Virus record (IMG/VR): IMGVR_UViG_3300021364_000040
Span: 1 to 46,768 of that record
DNA: 46,768 nt
Direction: 5' to 3' (one strand)
Source of the DNA: a virus
The notes beneath the pieces were generated by a model. The model had not been told where the DNA came from, made no database searches, and saw only the letters and a program-made list of their open reading frames with translations. Below are positions 1,220 to 43,853 of this stretch, piece by piece. The position numbers and the translations under genes were made by a program. How positions within the stretch are numbered: the first letter of the stretch is position 1; each line of letters starts with the position of its first letter.

Positions 1220-1946
1220 ACTTATTAGTTTTTGCTTAATTGCAATAATGTCGACACCAATTCTTTTCGCACAATCCACTGATGATAACGAGATTAAGAT
1301 TACCCAAACAGGTGATACTTTAGACTTGTATATAGACCAAATTGGATTTGGTAATAAGATAGGTTCTGATGCAACTGCTACAGGAGCTATGACTATTACT
1401 GGTGCAACTTTGGACTTTGATTTGGATTTTATAGGAAATTCAAATACTCTGTTCGGTTCTGTTGAAGCAGACAGTTCAGTATATAAACTAGACTTTACTG
1501 GTGATTCAAACAGTATAGACTGGTTAATCGGAGATGTAGGAAGTGCAGATTCATCGGACATTAACTTTGATGTCACTGGAAGTAGTAATACTTTTGACCT
1601 TGACCAAGGTAGTGTGTATAGTGCAGAGAGACTTAATTCAGACTTAATACTAATCGGTAGTTCGAATGTTTTTGATATTGATTGGGAAAGTGATGACTTA
1701 ACTTGGGACTTTGAAGTCACGGGTTCAAGTAATAATATTAACACACTTCAGTCAGACGGGGAACAATCTTTGGTTGTTGACCTAGACGGAGATAGTGCAG
1801 ATATGGATATTACACAAATTAGTGGAACATGTTCGCCGTCAAACGCTTCATGTGCAACACCTAATGCACTAATTACATTGGATATTACAAGTGATAATGC
1901 AACAATCCAAATTACTCAAAAAGATTCATCTAGCGATAGTAATTAA
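1212..1946 (+). CDS. Curlin-like secreted repeat protein
   Basis: A protein of 244 aa with a Sec signal peptide (MNKLISFCLIAIMSTPILFA). It is followed by repeats of roughly 22-26 residues built around motifs such as LYIDQIGFGN, FTGDSNSIDW, VTGSSNTFDL, LIGSSNVFDI and VTGSSNNINT, and ends with a TQKDSSSDSN tail. The G(S/N)SN and (D)QxG spacing resembles curlin (CsgA/CsgB) beta-arcade repeats. It is richer in Asp and poorer in Gln/Asn than classical CsgA. The ATG overlaps the csgG stop codon by 8 nt, so the two are translationally coupled. It is probably a substrate of the adjacent CsgG pore. Whether it forms amyloid cannot be told from sequence. Confidence 0.72.
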   Translation: MNKLISFCLIAIMSTPILFAQSTDDNEIKITQTGDTLDLYIDQIGFGNKIGSDATATGAMTITGATLDFDLDFIGNSNTLFGSVEADSSVYKLDFTGDSNSIDWLIGDVGSADSSDINFDVTGSSNTFDLDQGSVYSAERLNSDLILIGSSNVFDIDWESDDLTWDFEVTGSSNNINTLQSDGEQSLVVDLDGDSADMDITQISGTCSPSNASCATPNALITLDITSDNATIQITQKDSSSDSN

Positions 1947-3054
1947 TCTTATGTTTATCAGTGGGGTTGCATTCAGTGACCCCATTGGTGATATCGTAGA
2001 GTCAATTGGACTCGGAAAAATTACACGTCAAAATACAGATTTCATATCACCTGAAATAGGTTATGATATTGAATTGTATGACGTTGCAGAAACAGTAAAT
2101 GGGAGAATGAAGATTGAGTTCTTAGACGAAGAAGAACTTGACTTAATCGAACATACAATTGTATACATTGACGAAGTGTATTACGACCCCGACCCTTCTA
2201 AATCAAAAATGGCTATGAGAATGGTGCAAGGAACGGCACGATTTGCTTCAGGTAAGGGAAACAAAATAAAGAAAGCAAACATAGACATATCAACTCCAAC
2301 TGCTCAGATAGCAATTAATGGAACAGATTTCACAACAACTATTGACGAACTAGGAAGAACACTTGTTATACTTTTGCCTGACGAAGACGGAATAACACCT
2401 TCAGGTGAGATTAGAGTATATAACGAAGGTGGAGAAACTATACTGAATAAGGCATATCAAGCAACAATGGTATCAAGTTTAGACCAACCACCAACTCAAT
2501 CAGTAGTAATAAACAATTTAACAGTTAATCTCATTGACAATATGTTTATTGTTAACCCACCACAAGAAGTAAAACAAGCAGTAGAGGAACAGGCTTCAGA
2601 TGACCTTGATGAAGACCAAGGTGTTCTTGATGTTGATTTTCTAGAATTCAATGAATTAGAAAAAGATATAGATGATTATACAGATGAGAATTATGATGCA
2701 AGAGGAAGTAGACTAGATATAGATTTTCTAGATGTAGACTTCCTTACAGATTTATTAGACATAGTAGAAGCATTAGAAAAGACAACTGTAAGTCTTGGTG
2801 ATGCACAAAAAGGACAAACAGGTGATTATGACCTAAAGGGTGCAACACTTGGATTCAACAAAGATTCACAATTTAACGTATTTGTAGAAGATGGAAACTT
2901 ATATCTGTATAGAAATGTGAATGGTGTTATTGAAATAACCATTGCATCAGGTGGTTCAGGTTTCATAGACACTAGGGTAGAAGGTTGGGAAGGTATAATT
3001 GAGTTCGGAAACGGAGACCCCAGCATACGTATCTTTATCAATCAATCTAACTAA
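1897..3054 (+). CDS. Secreted FecR-domain protein
   Basis: The start at ATG 1897 (or GTG 1891) gives a good signal peptide: KLLKK, then a hydrophobic LAIVINLMFISGVAFS, then DPIGD. A later ATG at 1951 would cut off the charged n-region. The early start overlaps the previous gene by 50 nt. Mature residues about 35-160 resemble FecR domains (VNGRMKIEFLDEEELDL, MVQGTARFASG, IDISTPTAQIAINGTDFT, LGRTLVILLPDEDG). FecR-like domains are often encoded beside curlin genes. An acidic repeated stretch follows (VLDVDFLEF, LDIDFLDVDFL) and then a beta-rich C-terminal domain. The role is unknown; the position suggests a periplasmic or surface accessory of the curli-like module. Confidence 0.7.
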   Translation: MQQSKLLKKIHLAIVINLMFISGVAFSDPIGDIVESIGLGKITRQNTDFISPEIGYDIELYDVAETVNGRMKIEFLDEEELDLIEHTIVYIDEVYYDPDPSKSKMAMRMVQGTARFASGKGNKIKKANIDISTPTAQIAINGTDFTTTIDELGRTLVILLPDEDGITPSGEIRVYNEGGETILNKAYQATMVSSLDQPPTQSVVINNLTVNLIDNMFIVNPPQEVKQAVEEQASDDLDEDQGVLDVDFLEFNELEKDIDDYTDENYDARGSRLDIDFLDVDFLTDLLDIVEALEKTTVSLGDAQKGQTGDYDLKGATLGFNKDSQFNVFVEDGNLYLYRNVNGVIEITIASGGSGFIDTRVEGWEGIIEFGNGDPSIRIFINQSN

Positions 3055-3075: not shown

Positions 3076-3222
3076 ATGGATACTTTAATAAAAGTCTTTA
3101 AGTGGCATGAGAGAAGAACCGAATGGTGGTTAAACGAATTCGGTATGACTCAATATCAAGCTATGTGGTTTGCATGGTGTAAAGGTATATTAACAATATT
3201 AATATTACAATGGATATTTTAA
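3076..3222 (+). CDS. Small protein with C-terminal hydrophobic segment (48 aa)
   Basis: A 48-codon gene with a strong ribosome site (AGGAGGC, about 6 nt before the ATG). The N-terminal half is charged and Trp-rich (WHERRTEWWLN). The C-terminal half is hydrophobic (MWFAWCKGILTILILQWIF), so the protein is probably a short membrane or membrane-associated peptide. Its stop overlaps the start of the second curlin-like gene by 13 nt, placing it inside the curli-like operon. I recognise no family. Confidence 0.6.
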   Translation: MDTLIKVFKWHERRTEWWLNEFGMTQYQAMWFAWCKGILTILILQWIF

Positions 3223-4013
3223 AGAAAACATTTCTTATCATAGGGATTTCTATAATCCCTATGTTTTCTTATGCAGACGATAATCACGTTCATGTAGAAC
3301 AAGTCAATGGTGGTGACAATGCAGATTTATCAATTGACCAAATAGGTTATAATAACCTTGCACGTTTTTCTTTTGACCACCAAAATAATACAATAGACCT
3401 TTTACAATCAGGAAACAATTTGTATATTGGTTGGACTGATACATGGGGTTCGGGTAAAAGTTGGGGTGGTGATTTAGACGGATATAATAATGAATTAGAA
3501 GTTAGACAAAAATGTTCTGTCACAAGTTGTAATGATAATGATTTTGGATTTCATATATGGGGTAATTACAACCAAGTTGTTTTTGGTCAAGGATATGAAA
3601 TCAACAACTCACTTACACCTACTTGGAGTTATGACGGAACGGAGCCTGGTGGAAACTATGTAAGATTAGATATTCATGGTGACTACAATGACTTTAAAGG
3701 AAGTCAGAAACAAGATTCAGATTCAATAAGTCATTCAATGACTTGGAACATTTATGGTGATTACAATGACGTATTTTCAAAACAATTGCAGAATGGTGAT
3801 AAGACACTTACTGGAACAATTAACAACGATTACAATGAAGTTAGTGTAATTCAGAAAAAGACTGGAGCTCACACTGCAACAATAACACTAGACGGAACAT
3901 ACGGAACAGATTTAACCTTAGTTCAAACAGGTGATACTGCACAATCATATACACTATCTCAAACATGTAATACAATAGGTGGTTGCACTTTAAACGTCAC
4001 TCAAGGTAATTAA
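3210..4013 (+). CDS. Second curlin-like secreted repeat protein
   Basis: A protein of 267 aa with a signal peptide (MDILKKTFLIIGISIIPMFSYA). Its repeats contain LSIDQIGYNN, IDLLQSGNN, GDLDGYNNELEVRQ, IWGNYNQVVFGQ, IHGDYNDFKGSQKQ, IYGDYNDVFSKQ, INNDYNEVSVIQK and TLVQTGDTAQSYTLSQ. The recurring x-G-x-Y-N-x-(V/F) plus Gln spacing, about 20-25 residues apart, is like curlin repeats, here with DYN in place of GNxA. It is a paralogue-like partner of the first curlin-like gene (compare IDQIGFGN with IDQIGYNN). This could parallel a CsgA/CsgB pair. Its last base is the first base of the cyclase start codon. Confidence 0.72.
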   Translation: MDILKKTFLIIGISIIPMFSYADDNHVHVEQVNGGDNADLSIDQIGYNNLARFSFDHQNNTIDLLQSGNNLYIGWTDTWGSGKSWGGDLDGYNNELEVRQKCSVTSCNDNDFGFHIWGNYNQVVFGQGYEINNSLTPTWSYDGTEPGGNYVRLDIHGDYNDFKGSQKQDSDSISHSMTWNIYGDYNDVFSKQLQNGDKTLTGTINNDYNEVSVIQKKTGAHTATITLDGTYGTDLTLVQTGDTAQSYTLSQTCNTIGGCTLNVTQGN

Positions 4014-5857
4014 TGTATTCGTGGAAAACAGTTGTAATAACCATAGGGTTATTATTCGGTCTTAAGATATGGAATCCCTATTTCATAGAAAATATATCAT
4101 GGTCTTATTTTGATTATCTACACCAATCTCAGGAAGTAGTTCAGGTAGACAATATTGTCTTAGTAGATATAGACGAATCTTCACTTGAAGTGTATGGTCA
4201 GTATCCTTGGCCAAGGTCTATTTACAGGGATTTAATGCTTGACACTTCATACACTAATACACATGTTTTCACTCAACTCTTTAAAGAACCTGATAGGTTT
4301 CAGGGTGATGAGGCATTTGCAGAAGGTTTAGTTAACCGATTATCGATTCTATCTTCTGCACCAACAATTCAAAAAGATACTGGTTCTGCACCTTTTGTAA
4401 GAACTAGTGTTTTCGGTGGAGGAAATATAGAAGACCATATATGGAGTTTTTCAGGAATTTCTTCACCTATTCCAATACTAGAACAAAATTCATATGGTTC
4501 AGGTGTGACAATTACCACACCACCTATTAGTGGAACTGCAAACTTTGACGGAACAGTTCGTTCTGCACCATTAATTGTTTCTGCAAATGGTGTAGTGTAT
4601 CCCTCAGTTGCACTAGAAGTTTTACGTGCAATGTATGACGAACCTAATTATCAGACTCGTGTGACACCCGAAGTTGGAATCGAATGGATTCGTATAGGTA
4701 GACAACCCCCAATCGAAACCACTCCAACTGCAGATATCCTTGTAGGATATTGGAATAATTTCGAAAGGGTGTCGGCAAAAGATTTACCAAATTCTAACCT
4801 AGAGAACAAGACTCTAATTTGGGGTCTGACGGCTGAAGGTCTGAATAATCCAGTTTCAACCCCAGTGGGTGTAAAGTATCCTCACGAAGTTCAAGCTTCA
4901 ATCCTCCACTCCGTCTCCACAGGAGTTCAAATACAACAATCCTACTATCTTGAATTCTTAGAAGTCGTTCTTCTATTGACAGTCCTTTTAGCAATATTGG
5001 TATCGGTCTACACACTTCCCACAATTTTTTCGGGGATAGTGAGTCTAGGTATCGTTGGATTTCAGGTGGGTTTGGGTTTCTATTTGTGGACTTCAAGTTT
5101 CGTTCTTTTCGATATCTTCTACTCATCGATGGCCTCCATAATAGTTTTTGGACATGCTTCCTTCAACAAATATTATAAAACCTATCAACTCAAAGAACAA
5201 ATTAAGAAGCAGTTTCAAAAGTATTTATCTCCCGACATGGTTGACCAACTTGCAAAAAACCCCGACTTATTAAAACTAGGTGGTGAAAGAAAAGAAATGA
5301 CATTCATGTTCATGGACATATGTGGATTCACACCCATAAGTGAACACTATAAAAACAATGACGACCCCGAAGGATTAGTTGAACTCATAAACAAGTTTCT
5401 TGACATGCAAACAAAGATAATCCTAAATAATAAAGGAACAATCGACAAATACATGGGCGACTGTATTATGAGTTTTTGGAATGCACCTTTGGATTGTCCA
5501 AATCATGCTGAACTAGCAGTTAAGTCTGCAATAGAAGTATTAGCTGCAACCAAGGAACTCAATGAAGAACTTAAACCCCTCAACCTACCTCCTATCAATG
5601 TTGGTATTGGTATCTCTACAGGTGAGTGCATCGTTGGAAACATGGGGTCAGAAGTTAGATTTGACTATTCCGTCATTGGAGACGCCGTCAACCTTGGGGC
5701 TAGACTCGAGGGACAAACTCGAAATTACGAAGGGGTGGACGTGTTGTTATCATCAGAAACATATCGACAGTGTCCAAATAGAACATTCTCAGAAGTTGAT
5801 AGAATCAAGGTTAAAGGAAAGTCAGAACAGGTCACTATTTACACTCCGATTAGTTGA
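4013..5857 (+). CDS. CHASE2-domain class III adenylate cyclase, membrane-bound
   Basis: A protein of 614 aa. It has an N-terminal membrane helix, then a periplasmic CHASE2-type sensor (about 25-300: VDNIVLVDIDESSLEVYGQYPWPRS is the family's opening), three close transmembrane helices (about 310-385), a short linker (YLSPDMVDQL) and a class III cyclase domain (about 415-610). Catalytic features are present: metal Asp435 (FMDICGFT) and Asp483 (KYMGD), Lys479 for adenine recognition, and Asn560 and Arg564 (VNLGARLE). The second base-specifying position, usually Asp or Thr, appears to be Ser553. The expected reaction is ATP to cAMP. It overlaps the second curlin-like gene by 1 nt, so it probably belongs to the curli-like operon. 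I know of no common precedent in T4-type phages. Confidence 0.92.
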   Translation: MYSWKTVVITIGLLFGLKIWNPYFIENISWSYFDYLHQSQEVVQVDNIVLVDIDESSLEVYGQYPWPRSIYRDLMLDTSYTNTHVFTQLFKEPDRFQGDEAFAEGLVNRLSILSSAPTIQKDTGSAPFVRTSVFGGGNIEDHIWSFSGISSPIPILEQNSYGSGVTITTPPISGTANFDGTVRSAPLIVSANGVVYPSVALEVLRAMYDEPNYQTRVTPEVGIEWIRIGRQPPIETTPTADILVGYWNNFERVSAKDLPNSNLENKTLIWGLTAEGLNNPVSTPVGVKYPHEVQASILHSVSTGVQIQQSYYLEFLEVVLLLTVLLAILVSVYTLPTIFSGIVSLGIVGFQVGLGFYLWTSSFVLFDIFYSSMASIIVFGHASFNKYYKTYQLKEQIKKQFQKYLSPDMVDQLAKNPDLLKLGGERKEMTFMFMDICGFTPISEHYKNNDDPEGLVELINKFLDMQTKIILNNKGTIDKYMGDCIMSFWNAPLDCPNHAELAVKSAIEVLAATKELNEELKPLNLPPINVGIGISTGECIVGNMGSEVRFDYSVIGDAVNLGARLEGQTRNYEGVDVLLSSETYRQCPNRTFSEVDRIKVKGKSEQVTIYTPIS

Positions 5858-6161
5858 CCCACCAACTACAGGTGATTGGGTAGCTTTTATAGGATTGCAA
5901 CTTGCAGATGTCTACACTACATATCGTGGACTCAAATATGATTGTGTAAGAGAACTAAATCCTATCATAGGTGAAAGACCTTCAGTCAGTGATATGGTCT
6001 TCACTAAGAGTGTATTACTTATTCCATCAATACAATACGATTTAAGAAAAGGTAATATATCCTCAAAAACTGTAAAAGGGATAAATGGATTTATGTTAAT
6101 CGTTGTAGGAAACAACTATAAAGTCTGGCATGATTCTGAAAAGAATTGTAAAAAAATATAA
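5796..6161 (+). CDS. Small membrane protein, DUF5658-like; start unclear
   Basis: The conserved part (from about 5865) reads DWVAFIGLQLADVYTTYRGL, then ELNPIIGE and FMLIVVGNNYKVW. It has two or three hydrophobic segments and the LQxADxxTT...ELNP pattern that I associate with DUF5658-type membrane proteins. The frame is +1 relative to the cyclase. No ATG in this frame lies between 5600 and the conserved region. Possible starts are TTG 5796 (62 nt inside the cyclase gene) or TTG 5895, which would cut the conserved start. The frame is open further upstream to an ATG at 5562, but there it runs through the conserved cyclase core and is probably a shadow. A frameshifted cyclase fusion or a gene that lost its 5' end are alternatives. 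Confidence 0.5.
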   Translation: MIESRLKESQNRSLFTLRLVDPPTTGDWVAFIGLQLADVYTTYRGLKYDCVRELNPIIGERPSVSDMVFTKSVLLIPSIQYDLRKGNISSKTVKGINGFMLIVVGNNYKVWHDSEKNCKKI

Positions 6162-6360: not shown

Positions 6361-6771
6361 ATGACGCATTTAGATATATTTGGTCAATTCAGACCGCTTA
6401 CTGTAGGATTTGATAGATACTTCGATGAACTCGAAAGACTAACACATCATACGACTACTAACTACCCACCTTATAACATTGTAAAGGAAGATGCAGAGAA
6501 CTATTGCATTGAACTTGCAGTCGCAGGATTTGGTAAAAAAGATATTGAAATCACTAAAGAAAGAAATATCTTATCAATCGAAGGTAAAGTAGATGAAGAC
6601 TCAAAGGATTTTGTCCATAAAGGACTTGCCTCAAGAGCTTTCAAAAGAACCTTTACACTTGCAGATGATGTTGAGGTTAGTGGTGCAGACATGGTAGACG
6701 GAATTCTACACGTCAAACTGGTTAGAGTTATCCCCGAAGAGGATAAACCAGTTTCTATTAAAATTAAATAG
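6361..6771 (+). CDS. hsp20: Hsp20 small heat-shock protein
   Basis: A protein of 136 aa with an alpha-crystallin domain at about residues 35-136: PYNIVKEDAENYCIELAVAGFGKKDIEI, then LSIEGKV, AFKRTFTLADDVEV, DGILHVKLVRVIPEE and a C-terminal V-x-I motif (VSIKIK). These proteins hold unfolding client proteins in the cytoplasm. Hsp20 genes are common in marine T4-type phages. The ATG follows AGGAG by 6 nt. It is expressed from the promoter at 6181 with a long leader that may be temperature-responsive. Confidence 0.93.
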   Translation: MTHLDIFGQFRPLTVGFDRYFDELERLTHHTTTNYPPYNIVKEDAENYCIELAVAGFGKKDIEITKERNILSIEGKVDEDSKDFVHKGLASRAFKRTFTLADDVEVSGADMVDGILHVKLVRVIPEEDKPVSIKIK

Positions 6772-6780
6772 AAAACCCCC

Positions 6781-6818
6781 TTTACGTATACACCCGTTAT
6801 ATAGTATAATGGGTGTAT
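6781..6818 (+). promoter_or_regulatory. Promoter with inverted repeat, upstream of peroxiredoxin gene
   Basis: TTTACG (6781-6786), 18 nt, then TATAAT (6805-6810). An 8-bp perfect inverted repeat, ATACACCC (6788-6795) and GGGTGTAT (6811-6818), brackets the -10 box. It could be an operator or a weak terminator for upstream reading. The leader is about 24 nt and carries an AAGGAG ribosome site. Confidence 0.65.
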
Positions 6819-6840: not shown

Positions 6841-7362
6841 ATGTTAACAGTTGGACAACAATTTCCTGCGTTCTCACTGCAAGGAATTAATGAAAACAAC
6901 GAATTTGTGAGAGTTAGTGTAGACGAAAATTATCAACCATTAAAACATGATTGGTCAGTAGTTTACTTTTATCCAAAAGACTTTACCTTTATATGTCCTA
7001 CAGAGATTGCTGGTTTCGACACTTTAGTTGACCATGCAAACGTGATAGGAATTAGTGGTGATAACGAGTTCTGTAAATTAGCATGGAAACAAGATAATGA
7101 ATTGATAGGTAATATCAGACATACACTTGCAGCTGATTGTGGACTAGGATTATCTTCACTATTGGGTATTGTCAATGAAGAAGAGGGTGTATGTTATCGT
7201 GCAACCTTTATCTTTGATAAAAACAGAATCATTCAACATGCTTCAGTCAATGCATTAGACACTGGAAGAAACCATAACGAAGTTCTAAGAACTTTGAAAG
7301 GTTTACAAGCAGGTGGACTAACTGGTTGTGCATGGGACGATGGGGACGAGTTTGTCGGATAA
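6841..7362 (+). CDS. 2-Cys peroxiredoxin (AhpC/Prx1 type)
   Basis: A protein of 173 aa with a thioredoxin fold. The peroxidatic Cys52 sits in DFTFICPTE and the resolving Cys163 in GLTGCAWDDGDE near the C-terminus. GISGDNEFCKLAW is the usual central segment. It reduces hydrogen peroxide and organic peroxides in the cytoplasm, using a thiol donor (host thioredoxin or AhpF-like, or possibly the phage glutaredoxin). It is slightly shorter than typical AhpC (about 187 aa). It has its own promoter at 6781 and overlaps the methyltransferase gene by 23 nt. It probably protects an infected cell from oxidative stress. Confidence 0.93.
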   Translation: MLTVGQQFPAFSLQGINENNEFVRVSVDENYQPLKHDWSVVYFYPKDFTFICPTEIAGFDTLVDHANVIGISGDNEFCKLAWKQDNELIGNIRHTLAADCGLGLSSLLGIVNEEEGVCYRATFIFDKNRIIQHASVNALDTGRNHNEVLRTLKGLQAGGLTGCAWDDGDEFVG

Positions 7363-13416: not shown

Positions 13417-13812
13417 ATGGCATATAGTAAACAAGTGATTGAGAGGTTCGAAGGTGTTTTAAATTCACCCGAACAATTCTCAGTTGGAAGATTTGACCCT
13501 AACGACCCGAATGTAGCAACAGGAATGACGGGTGCTCCCGCATGTGGTGACGTTATGAAACTCCAATTGAAACTAAATCCCGATACCAATGTTATAGAAG
13601 ACGTAAAGTTTAAAACATATGGTTGTGGAAGTGCAATCGCAAGTTCAACTATGTTCGTTGATATGTTAAAAGGTTTAACTATAGACGAAGCCAAGGAAAT
13701 TAAAGATAAGGATATTGCAGACGCATTAGAACTTCCACCTATAAAACTACACTGTTCAGTGTTAGCAGAAGATTCAATCAGACGTGCAATCCAAAACTGG
13801 GAAGAAAAATAA
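13417..13812 (+). CDS. iscU: IscU Fe-S cluster scaffold protein
   Basis: A protein of 131 aa that is IscU-like over its whole length. It has the three cluster ligands Cys43 (GAPACGDVMKLQL), Cys70 (YGCGSAIASS) and Cys113 (LHCSVLAED), with Asp45 and His112. The chaperone-recognition motif LPPIK (106-110) matches the LPPVK that HscA binds. It should hold nascent [2Fe-2S] clusters made by the host cysteine desulfurase and pass them on via HscA/HscB. No IscS, HscA or HscB genes are nearby, so it depends on the host machinery. It shares its last base with the next start codon. It has its own late promoter and no leader. Confidence 0.95.
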   Translation: MAYSKQVIERFEGVLNSPEQFSVGRFDPNDPNVATGMTGAPACGDVMKLQLKLNPDTNVIEDVKFKTYGCGSAIASSTMFVDMLKGLTIDEAKEIKDKDIADALELPPIKLHCSVLAEDSIRRAIQNWEEK

Positions 13813-36423: not shown

Positions 36424-36588
36424 ATGGAAATAGGACTATTATTTGCAATTGCAATATTATCACTTGCAGCGATATATGGTCTGTTAGTAAGAAACCTTGA
36501 GGGAACGAAAGGTATTACAAAACCATATAAAACAAAATCAGGCAGACTTAGAACTGCAAGAAAATCAAGGGAGAGACATTTAGTATGA
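36424..36588 (+). CDS. Small membrane protein with basic tail (54 aa)
   Basis: The ATG follows a TAGGAG site. One hydrophobic helix (IGLLFAIAILSLAAIYGLLV) is followed by a basic tail (KPYKTKSGRLRTARKSRERH). It overlaps the cytochrome gene in an ATGA. No family is recognised. It could be a partner of the membrane-anchored cytochrome next to it. Confidence 0.6.
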   Translation: MEIGLLFAIAILSLAAIYGLLVRNLEGTKGITKPYKTKSGRLRTARKSRERHLV

Positions 36589-37028
36589 AAGAATTAGGAA
36601 TGGCATTATTAGGAACATTTGCGATTGCATTGTTCTTTGGGTTTAAAGTATATCCCGATTTAGAATACACTGGTGTTGATGGTGGTCATTCATGCACGGG
36701 AGAGTGTTATGAAGAATATGTTGCAATCAATGGAACAGTGGTAGAGATTGAACAGAAAAAGAAAGAACTTGCAAACAAAGATGAGTTCTCTACAATTAGA
36801 AGTTTATGGGCTGGTTGTGCAGCCTGTCATGGTCAGAATGGTGAGGGAATGGCAGTATTTCCAGCACTTAAAGGTCAGACAAAGGATTATATTACAGATA
36901 GACTCTACGCATACAGAAATAAAGAGAATGTCGGTGCAATGTCCTCAACTATGTGGGCACAAGCTGGTATGTTAACTGATTCAGACATCGAAACAATCGG
37001 TGAATTTATACAAAAGGAGTTAAAATAA
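36585..37028 (+). CDS. Membrane-anchored class I cytochrome c
   Basis: A protein of 147 aa. An N-terminal uncleaved helix (about 5-22) is followed by a periplasmic linker with CTGEC (Cys37, Cys41) and a cytochrome c domain. The heme-binding motif is CAACH (Cys78, Cys81, His82); a Met in GAMSSTMWAQ (Met119 or Met123) would be the sixth ligand. TDSDIETIGEFIQ is the usual C-terminal helix. It would transfer electrons at the periplasmic face of the inner membrane, with host heme-attachment machinery. It lies between nrdB and glutaredoxin genes. Phage cytochromes are rare, so it is notable. Confidence 0.92.
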   Translation: MKELGMALLGTFAIALFFGFKVYPDLEYTGVDGGHSCTGECYEEYVAINGTVVEIEQKKKELANKDEFSTIRSLWAGCAACHGQNGEGMAVFPALKGQTKDYITDRLYAYRNKENVGAMSSTMWAQAGMLTDSDIETIGEFIQKELK

Positions 37029-43220: not shown

Positions 43221-43853
43221 ATGAAAAATGTGATTACATTAATGTTAGGCTTGTTCCTAACAACTTCTGCATATGCAGATATAACAGGAAATATTGGTTA
43301 TCAAAATGACTTTGTTTTCCGTGGTGTCAATCAGACACAAAGTGGTGGTTCATTATCTACACAAGTAGTGTTAGATTCTAATGGATTTTATGGTGGTGTA
43401 TCTGCTAGTCAAGTAGACTTCGGTGACGAGGTTGATTCTAACTGGAGAGGTATGCTGAATGGTGGATTTTCTTTTGCATTCAATCAGAATGTTGCAATCG
43501 ACCTAGGTGTTTTATCACACCATTTTGATAATGACGCATTCGAACAAATGGACGAGATATACGCAGGTGTATCAGTTGGTTCATTCAGTGGATATGTGTT
43601 TCAAAATATTGATAATAATGATAACTTTGCAGAATTGTGTTATGATTTCTATTTTGGAACTGGAACACTTCAACTAGTGTATGGTTATCATGACGAGACT
43701 GCAGATTACTTTCAAGTAAGAGGTAATAAAACATTCGGTGATTTTACCATATTCACCACAATAGGTTATGCAGACCAAGACTCAGTATTGGGTGACTTGG
43801 GTCAATCTGAACTATTTGAAAATATATCAGTAGGATTCAGATATAACTTTTAA
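43221..43853 (+). CDS. TorF-like outer-membrane porin
   Basis: A protein of 210 aa with a signal peptide (MKNVITLMLGLFLTTSAYA). The mature part is a beta-barrel: GNIGYQNDFVFRGVNQTQSGGSLSTQVVL, alternating strands, and a terminal aromatic (SVGFRYNF). It matches the TorF-type putative porin family. A phage-encoded outer-membrane protein is unusual. It may alter permeability or mask receptors against superinfection. It is preceded by AAGGAG and followed by the tRNA cluster. Confidence 0.85.
   Translation: MKNVITLMLGLFLTTSAYADITGNIGYQNDFVFRGVNQTQSGGSLSTQVVLDSNGFYGGVSASQVDFGDEVDSNWRGMLNGGFSFAFNQNVAIDLGVLSHHFDNDAFEQMDEIYAGVSVGSFSGYVFQNIDNNDNFAELCYDFYFGTGTLQLVYGYHDETADYFQVRGNKTFGDFTIFTTIGYADQDSVLGDLGQSELFENISVGFRYNF

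Follow-up and report, generated by a model that had tools for sequence, protein, structure and literature searches.

The curli-type gene cluster of the marine phage analyzed here may constitute a phage-encoded sensor of curli assembly with a cyclic-nucleotide output, a proposal that we hold at slightly less than even confidence. A FecR-domain periplasmic protein, which lay outside the argument of the preliminary description of this DNA, is the more informative partner of the CHASE2 cyclase around which that description was built. The window, by which we mean the whole stretch of DNA analyzed, is a 46.8-kb viral record with a G+C content of 35.5%. It carries T4-like replication genes (phage DNA polymerase, UvsX, DnaB-like helicase, primase, and ribonucleotide reductase) and is a contig of a genuine T4-like phage. 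The following features were assigned to the cluster at its beginning.

1–276, + strand: C-terminal part of CsgF, the gene being cut by the contig end; the Pfam CsgF match is weak (E = 0.086), and order and sequence fit the CsgF of relatives.
233–1219, + strand: CsgG-like outer-membrane curli secretion channel (PF03783, 7.1e-51; PHROG 20175), probably a lipoprotein (LLISGC).
1212–1946, + strand: curlin-repeat protein 1 (PF07012, 1e-4, above the cut-off).
1891–3054, + strand: FecR-domain periplasmic protein (PF04773, 2.6e-8) with a C-terminal beta domain and a curlin-like tail strand, IFINQSN.
3210–4013, + strand: curlin-like protein 2 (PF07012, 0.0056, below the cut-off), with conserved position and tail (...NVTQGN).
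4013–5857, + strand: CHASE2 class III adenylate cyclase, an intact frame from ATG of 614 residues (Pfam CHASE2 and Guanylate_cyc).
5562–6161, + strand: DUF5658-like ORF after the cyclase (Pfam DUF5658, 6.6e-4, below the cut-off).

Such a cluster with a cyclase is not new and is known from phages of SAR11 and OM43. The CsgF-CsgG-curlin-FecR-curlin-cyclase module was published in 2022 for SAR11 myo- and podophages and ocean viromes (PMC9599517), and the literature on the pelagiphage T8SS/curli module also includes PMC7029224 and PMC9004378. HTVC008M (KC465899) has an adenylate/guanylyl cyclase annotated behind csgF, csgG, and a curlin gene, and Melnitz (MZ577097) is annotated with CsgF, CsgG, curlin, FecR, curlin, and cyclase; the preliminary description had presented the curlin-cyclase pair as new, which these records contradict. 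The window has the same genes in the same order, with CsgF truncated by the contig end, and differs by a CHASE2 of a divergent lineage (41.6% identity to the HTVC008M cyclase across the whole protein) and by the DUF5658-like gene behind the cyclase. Among 123 viral contigs that extend far enough upstream, 118 show the order CsgF-CsgG-Cur-FecR-Cur-AC. As the cultured HTVC008M and Melnitz share it with these contigs, the curlin-cyclase junction is not an assembly artefact, and a host junction or misassembly between the cluster genes, which had been named as a way in which the description could fail, was ruled out. The joining of the cyclase to a curli-type operon was upheld, and the same gene pair, which the description had proposed to look for in marine phage genomes, occurs in both cultured phages and in those 118 contigs. 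At the junction itself, the stop codon TAA of the second curlin-like gene and the ATG of the cyclase have base 4013 in common, confirming the one-base overlap described before. When loci were fetched via FecR (n = 70), the cyclase was present in all 70 and a second curlin gene in 35, the other 35 having none; podophage-type clusters are without the second curlin, and FecR and the cyclase therefore adjoin. The cyclase is kept in contigs from two phage families. CsgG, CsgF, and curlin repeats are common to these clusters and E. coli csgBAC/csgDEFG, whereas the phage clusters have FecR and the cyclase added and no CsgD, CsgE, or CsgC annotated. The latter was seen from the annotation of the HTVC008M and Melnitz clusters (the window begins within CsgF), and absence of the three was also reported in PMC9599517. 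The near-invariant order, purifying selection, FecR tail, FecR-CHASE2 covariation, and cyclase domain exchange are new here, as are the scarcity of cNMP-binding domains and the bacterial loci that combine FecR and CHASE2 cyclases without curli genes, both described below. No mention of CHASE domains was found in the accessible portion of the PMC9599517 text, and the literature search gave no paper treating both CHASE2 and CsgG and no report of a curlin-like FecR tail or of cyclase domain exchange.

Several other observations were made on the window. A small ORF (MDTLIKVFKWHERRTEWWLNEFG...) lies behind an AGGAGG-like site at about 3076–3210, between the FecR and second curlin-like genes. The DUF5658-like ORF, which has a signal-peptide-like start, shares the final 296 bases of the cyclase gene, in a different frame, and is possibly an overprinted gene; the frame is open in 72 of the 74 loci of the window type versus 0 of the 78 of the HTVC008M type, and codon identity for same-residue pairs is 0.69 in the overlap versus 0.61 in the preceding part of the cyclase, the membrane region also giving 0.69. 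A gene related to this ORF is located between FecR and the cyclase in one locus (L328). Farther along are other metabolic or envelope genes, for Hsp20 (6361–6771), with a strong terminator-like hairpin of 14 pairs on its 3' side (6788–6818), a peroxiredoxin of the AhpC-TSA type (6841–7362), IscU/NifU-N (13417–13812, 3.5e-38), a CxxCH cytochrome c-like ORF judged by eye (36585–37028), and a Gcw_chp family protein (43221–43853). A promoter scan gave no excess versus shuffled sequences. The best matches of the window tRNAs reached 90% for the order that contains SAR86 and 88% for the family that contains SAR11, a difference that is not decisive for host assignment.

The preliminary description of a CHASE2 class III cyclase in a phage stood, as did its periplasmic sensor. 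On the window protein, Pfam placed CHASE2 (PF05226, 1.3e-26) at residues 14–327 and Guanylate_cyc (PF00211, 8.5e-19) at residues 427–608, both above the cut-off, the latter with 68.3 bits versus a cut-off of 21.9. In the predicted structure (pLDDT 88.9), an N-terminal membrane helix near residues 4–20 is followed by the periplasmic CHASE2 domain, helices at 311–334 and 337–362, a long helix at 368–402, and the cyclase domain at 425–612; Pfam and model together give the layout of a CHASE2 receptor, in which the domain is flanked by an N-terminal helix and C-terminal membrane helices. The modeled cyclase domain resembles in fold that of P. aeruginosa CyaB (PDB 3r5g; TM 0.89, 36% identity), a comparison of the catalytic domain only, the window sensor being CHASE2. 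The catalytic residues named previously (D435, K479, D483, S553, N560, and R564) were all located at those positions. All 237 aligned viral homologues have D435, K479, D483, and D557, R564 is found in all 236 that have a residue at that column, and both the window and HTVC008M types carry N560 and S553. The window protein hence has the metal-binding aspartates (D435/D483) and transition-state residues (N560 and R564) of class III enzymes, together with the adenine-specifying Lys plus Asp/Thr/Ser pair as K479 and S553, Ser being the less usual choice. Alignment showed Thr at the position of Ser553 in CyaB and Glu at that of Lys479 in the guanylyl cyclase Cya2. Since Lys and Ser (Thr in CyaB) occupy the base-specifying positions, ATP is indicated as the substrate, and the protein is probably an active adenylate cyclase making cAMP, as judged from these residues. 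In 78 Melnitz-type proteins, the catalytic Asn (N560) is replaced by Ser and Ser553 by Asp, so that their output may differ and could amount to little or no cAMP. Melnitz-type cyclases (L083 and the 78) are highly conserved despite the Ser for Asn, with 84% mean cyclase-domain identity among representatives.

For 80 window-type genes, median omega (dN/dS) was 0.089 in the cyclase domain and 0.16 in CHASE2, values that are rough because synonymous sites are near saturation; by these ratios, the cyclase is under strong purifying selection. A non-functional passenger kept by linkage, in favor of which stands only the absence of a known receptor described below, is accordingly very improbable given an omega of about 0.09, invariant catalytic residues, near-invariant order, and retention in two phage families.

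The cyclase domains have been exchanged on related sensors, as the CHASE2 and cyclase-domain trees group the types differently. For CHASE2, most Melnitz-type sensors join those of the HTVC008M type in a supported group that excludes the window type (100/99), and uniting the window and HTVC008M types was rejected (p = 0.007). The cyclase-domain tree instead places the window and HTVC008M types together (99/97) with the Melnitz types as another group, and a CHASE2-like grouping was rejected (p = 5e-88). A third type of cyclase domain was found in one locus (L215). On these trees, the CHASE2 of the window is a lineage divergent from that of HTVC008M.

The C-terminus of nearly all viral FecR proteins reads I-x-I-x-Q, followed by about two residues and often S-N, and resembles the last strands of curlin proteins, such as NVTQGN. 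This IxIxQ tail was detected in 254 of 256 unique viral FecRs versus 19 of 2391 other ORFs, and in 2.7% of shuffled sequences, a count that is not to be taken as a probability because the viral FecR sequences are related. None of the 25 bacterial FecRs encoded near CHASE2 cyclases has it. The tail residue Gln385 is among the 31 invariant columns of FecR, whose mean identity over all columns is about 50%. As the full curlin repeat pattern, G..[ND].phi.phi.Q, was present in only 42 of the 256 tails, we call the tail curlin-like and not a full repeat. In the FecR model (pLDDT 76.9), the main domain resembles the cell-surface signalling domain of PupR, and the tail of only 5–7 residues forms a low-confidence strand behind the C-terminal beta domain. 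An origin of the tail in overlap with the start of curlin 2 was rejected, since it persists where FecR stops about 150 bases earlier, as in the window, or where the second curlin gene is absent. The tail suggests that the cluster genes act jointly in detecting the assembly of fibres and in signalling to the inside of the cell. A published view instead takes FecR as an iron-responsive regulator and the cyclase as an accessory curli regulator, with the pore importing iron compounds or other cofactors (PMC9599517). The name and domain of FecR agree with it, but neither a FecI sigma factor nor a FecA (TonB-dependent) receptor is annotated in the HTVC008M and Melnitz regions or was seen among the window module ORFs, so that FecR does not fall among the anti-sigma regulators that work with FecI/FecA. 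The curlin-like tail, the covariation of FecR with CHASE2 and curlin, and the occurrence of FecR-CHASE2 pairs in bacteria also count against the iron view, which we consider improbable.

Covariation within the cluster was evaluated by distance correlations over 129 loci, controlled for CsgG and CsgF. The partial correlations of FecR were 0.57 with CHASE2 and 0.58 with curlin 1, versus 0.08 with the cyclase domain and 0.10 with curlin 2; that between CHASE2 and its own cyclase domain was only 0.27. The FecR-CHASE2 value was 0.64 (p = 0.0005) in 59 non-redundant loci. These values fit a chain from curlin through FecR to CHASE2 with an exchangeable output, and linkage and unequal rates may partly explain them: genes of one operon share a history whose effect partial correlations lessen and do not abolish, and comparisons with curlin 2 or the cyclase domain are noisy.

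Of 80 bacterial loci with a CHASE2 cyclase, about 24 have FecR near it (25 genes). Phage models for CsgG, CsgF, and curlin, which recognized E. coli csgG, csgF, and csgA/B when these served as positive controls, found none of the three in the same 80 loci, and adjoining CsgG or curlin genes were thus rejected for the bacterial CHASE2 cyclases. Because FecR accompanies about 24 of the 80 and curli genes none, the FecR/CHASE2-cyclase pair seems to be a sensor unit of bacteria that became linked to curli in phages. The bacterial enzymes (S. meliloti CyaD1/D2/K and those of Campylobacterota) have CHASE2, three C-terminal helices, and a class III cyclase like the window protein, and FecR is often near, as reported for Campylobacterota (PMC9239204); they differ in being mostly longer (about 740 residues), in sharing at most 36% full-length identity, and in the lack of curli genes in their 80 loci. 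The Burkholderia BiofilmReg operon, which encodes a LysM-FecR protein and a CHASE2 histidine kinase and is tied to biofilm (PMC5192318), likewise places a periplasmic FecR-domain protein beside a CHASE2 sensor, and differs from the phage cluster in its histidine kinase output and response regulator, without curli genes.

cAMP-CRP regulates curli in enteric bacteria. The preliminary description drew on the influence of cAMP on enteric curli expression to propose that a phage source of cAMP may change the surface or metabolism of the host. The corresponding explanation is that the cyclase raises cAMP, by which the host CRP pathway alters metabolism, surface, or curli expression. The completeness of the catalytic set, including a Lys/Ser pair as expected for an adenylate cyclase, agrees with this route; the distribution of receptors does not. 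Of 60 genomes from the SAR11-containing family, which may not be the family of the window's host, 2 have a cNMP-binding domain, versus 210 of 289 in the wider class sample. The family sample was centered on a genome that perfectly matches the target of what we take to be the sequence of the 16S probe SAR11-441R. In the SAR86-containing order, 14 of 41 genomes have such a domain, mostly in proteins of 341–395 residues, and the one examined is a channel. No cNMP-binding protein occurs in 23 phage records, HTVC008M and Melnitz included. With 2 of 60 and 0 of 23, the cAMP-to-CRP route is poorly supported, and the enteric analogy is not supported, no CsgD being annotated in the known clusters; we regard this route as having little chance of being correct. 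Class III cyclases were also found in only 2 of the 60 family genomes, and their assignment to SAR11 was rejected, both being on phage contigs within bins (with the curli cluster, and in one with terminase and portal genes). Because phage contigs bearing the curli-FecR-cyclase cluster are present in these bins (L327 and L328), genome surveys can take the clusters for host genes. In a SAR86 genome (L251, 7935–13094), a CHASE2 cyclase has near it the gene of an outer-membrane DUF481 protein and that of a cyclic-nucleotide-gated ion channel, a neighborhood that suggests a local cAMP receptor.

The scarcity of receptors would also fit a product other than cAMP, or one that acts on nucleotide-based host defence as a decoy or competing cyclic nucleotide; the phage records yielded no cAMP receptor and the SAR11-containing family very few, and three types of cyclase domain are exchanged on related sensors. 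Lys479 and Ser553 nevertheless fit adenine specificity, Cya2 having Glu at the Lys position, and a periplasmic sensor with a FecR partner would be needless for a pure decoy. Such a role is therefore quite unlikely.

In the assembly-sensor mechanism that we prefer, a curli-type amyloid export system would consist of a CsgG/CsgF pore in the outer membrane and of the curlin-repeat proteins as its cargo. The curlin-like strand of periplasmic FecR would contact curlin, the growing fibre, or the export complex, so that curlin serves as the signal, and FecR would relay that state to the CHASE2 domain, presumably by direct contact. The cyclase would then alter, in one direction or the other, the cyclic-nucleotide output of the infected cell, most likely cAMP. 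In its favor are the conserved gene order, the adjoining FecR and cyclase genes of podophage-type clusters, the FecR tail, the covariation of FecR with CHASE2 and curlin 1, the bacterial FecR-CHASE2 pairs, the low omega, and the CyaB-like fold. Against this mechanism stand the shortness and low model confidence of the tail strand, the shared history of operon genes, the Ser in place of the catalytic Asn in Melnitz-type cyclases, the lack of a cyclic-nucleotide receptor in the 23 phage records, its near absence from the SAR11-containing family (2 of 60 genomes), and the report that Melnitz-infected cultures showed no clumping (PMC9004378). The same lack of clumping favors a lysis-timing model. 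It builds on a proposal made for Melnitz from the pore structure, in which CsgG/CsgF act as a regulated pore and trigger release (PMC9004378); in the model, FecR and the cyclase would time this event. The Melnitz proposal took the curlin-repeat genes as absent, while they are conserved in the module, and it gives no role to the curlin-like tail of FecR; we consider lysis timing unlikely. In a more specific form of the assembly sensor, which is possible yet doubtful, the FecR tail would read fibre export and drive a CHASE2 cyclase with an interchangeable catalytic domain, in hosts without the usual cAMP receptor. If those hosts lack it, a new receptor or target would have to exist.

Among marine phages that infect abundant bacteria, the module is widespread. 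The curlin-like tail of FecR, its link to CHASE2, and the missing known receptor argue against importing the enteric cAMP-CRP story to these phages, and they make the question of what purpose phage curli serve specifically testable.
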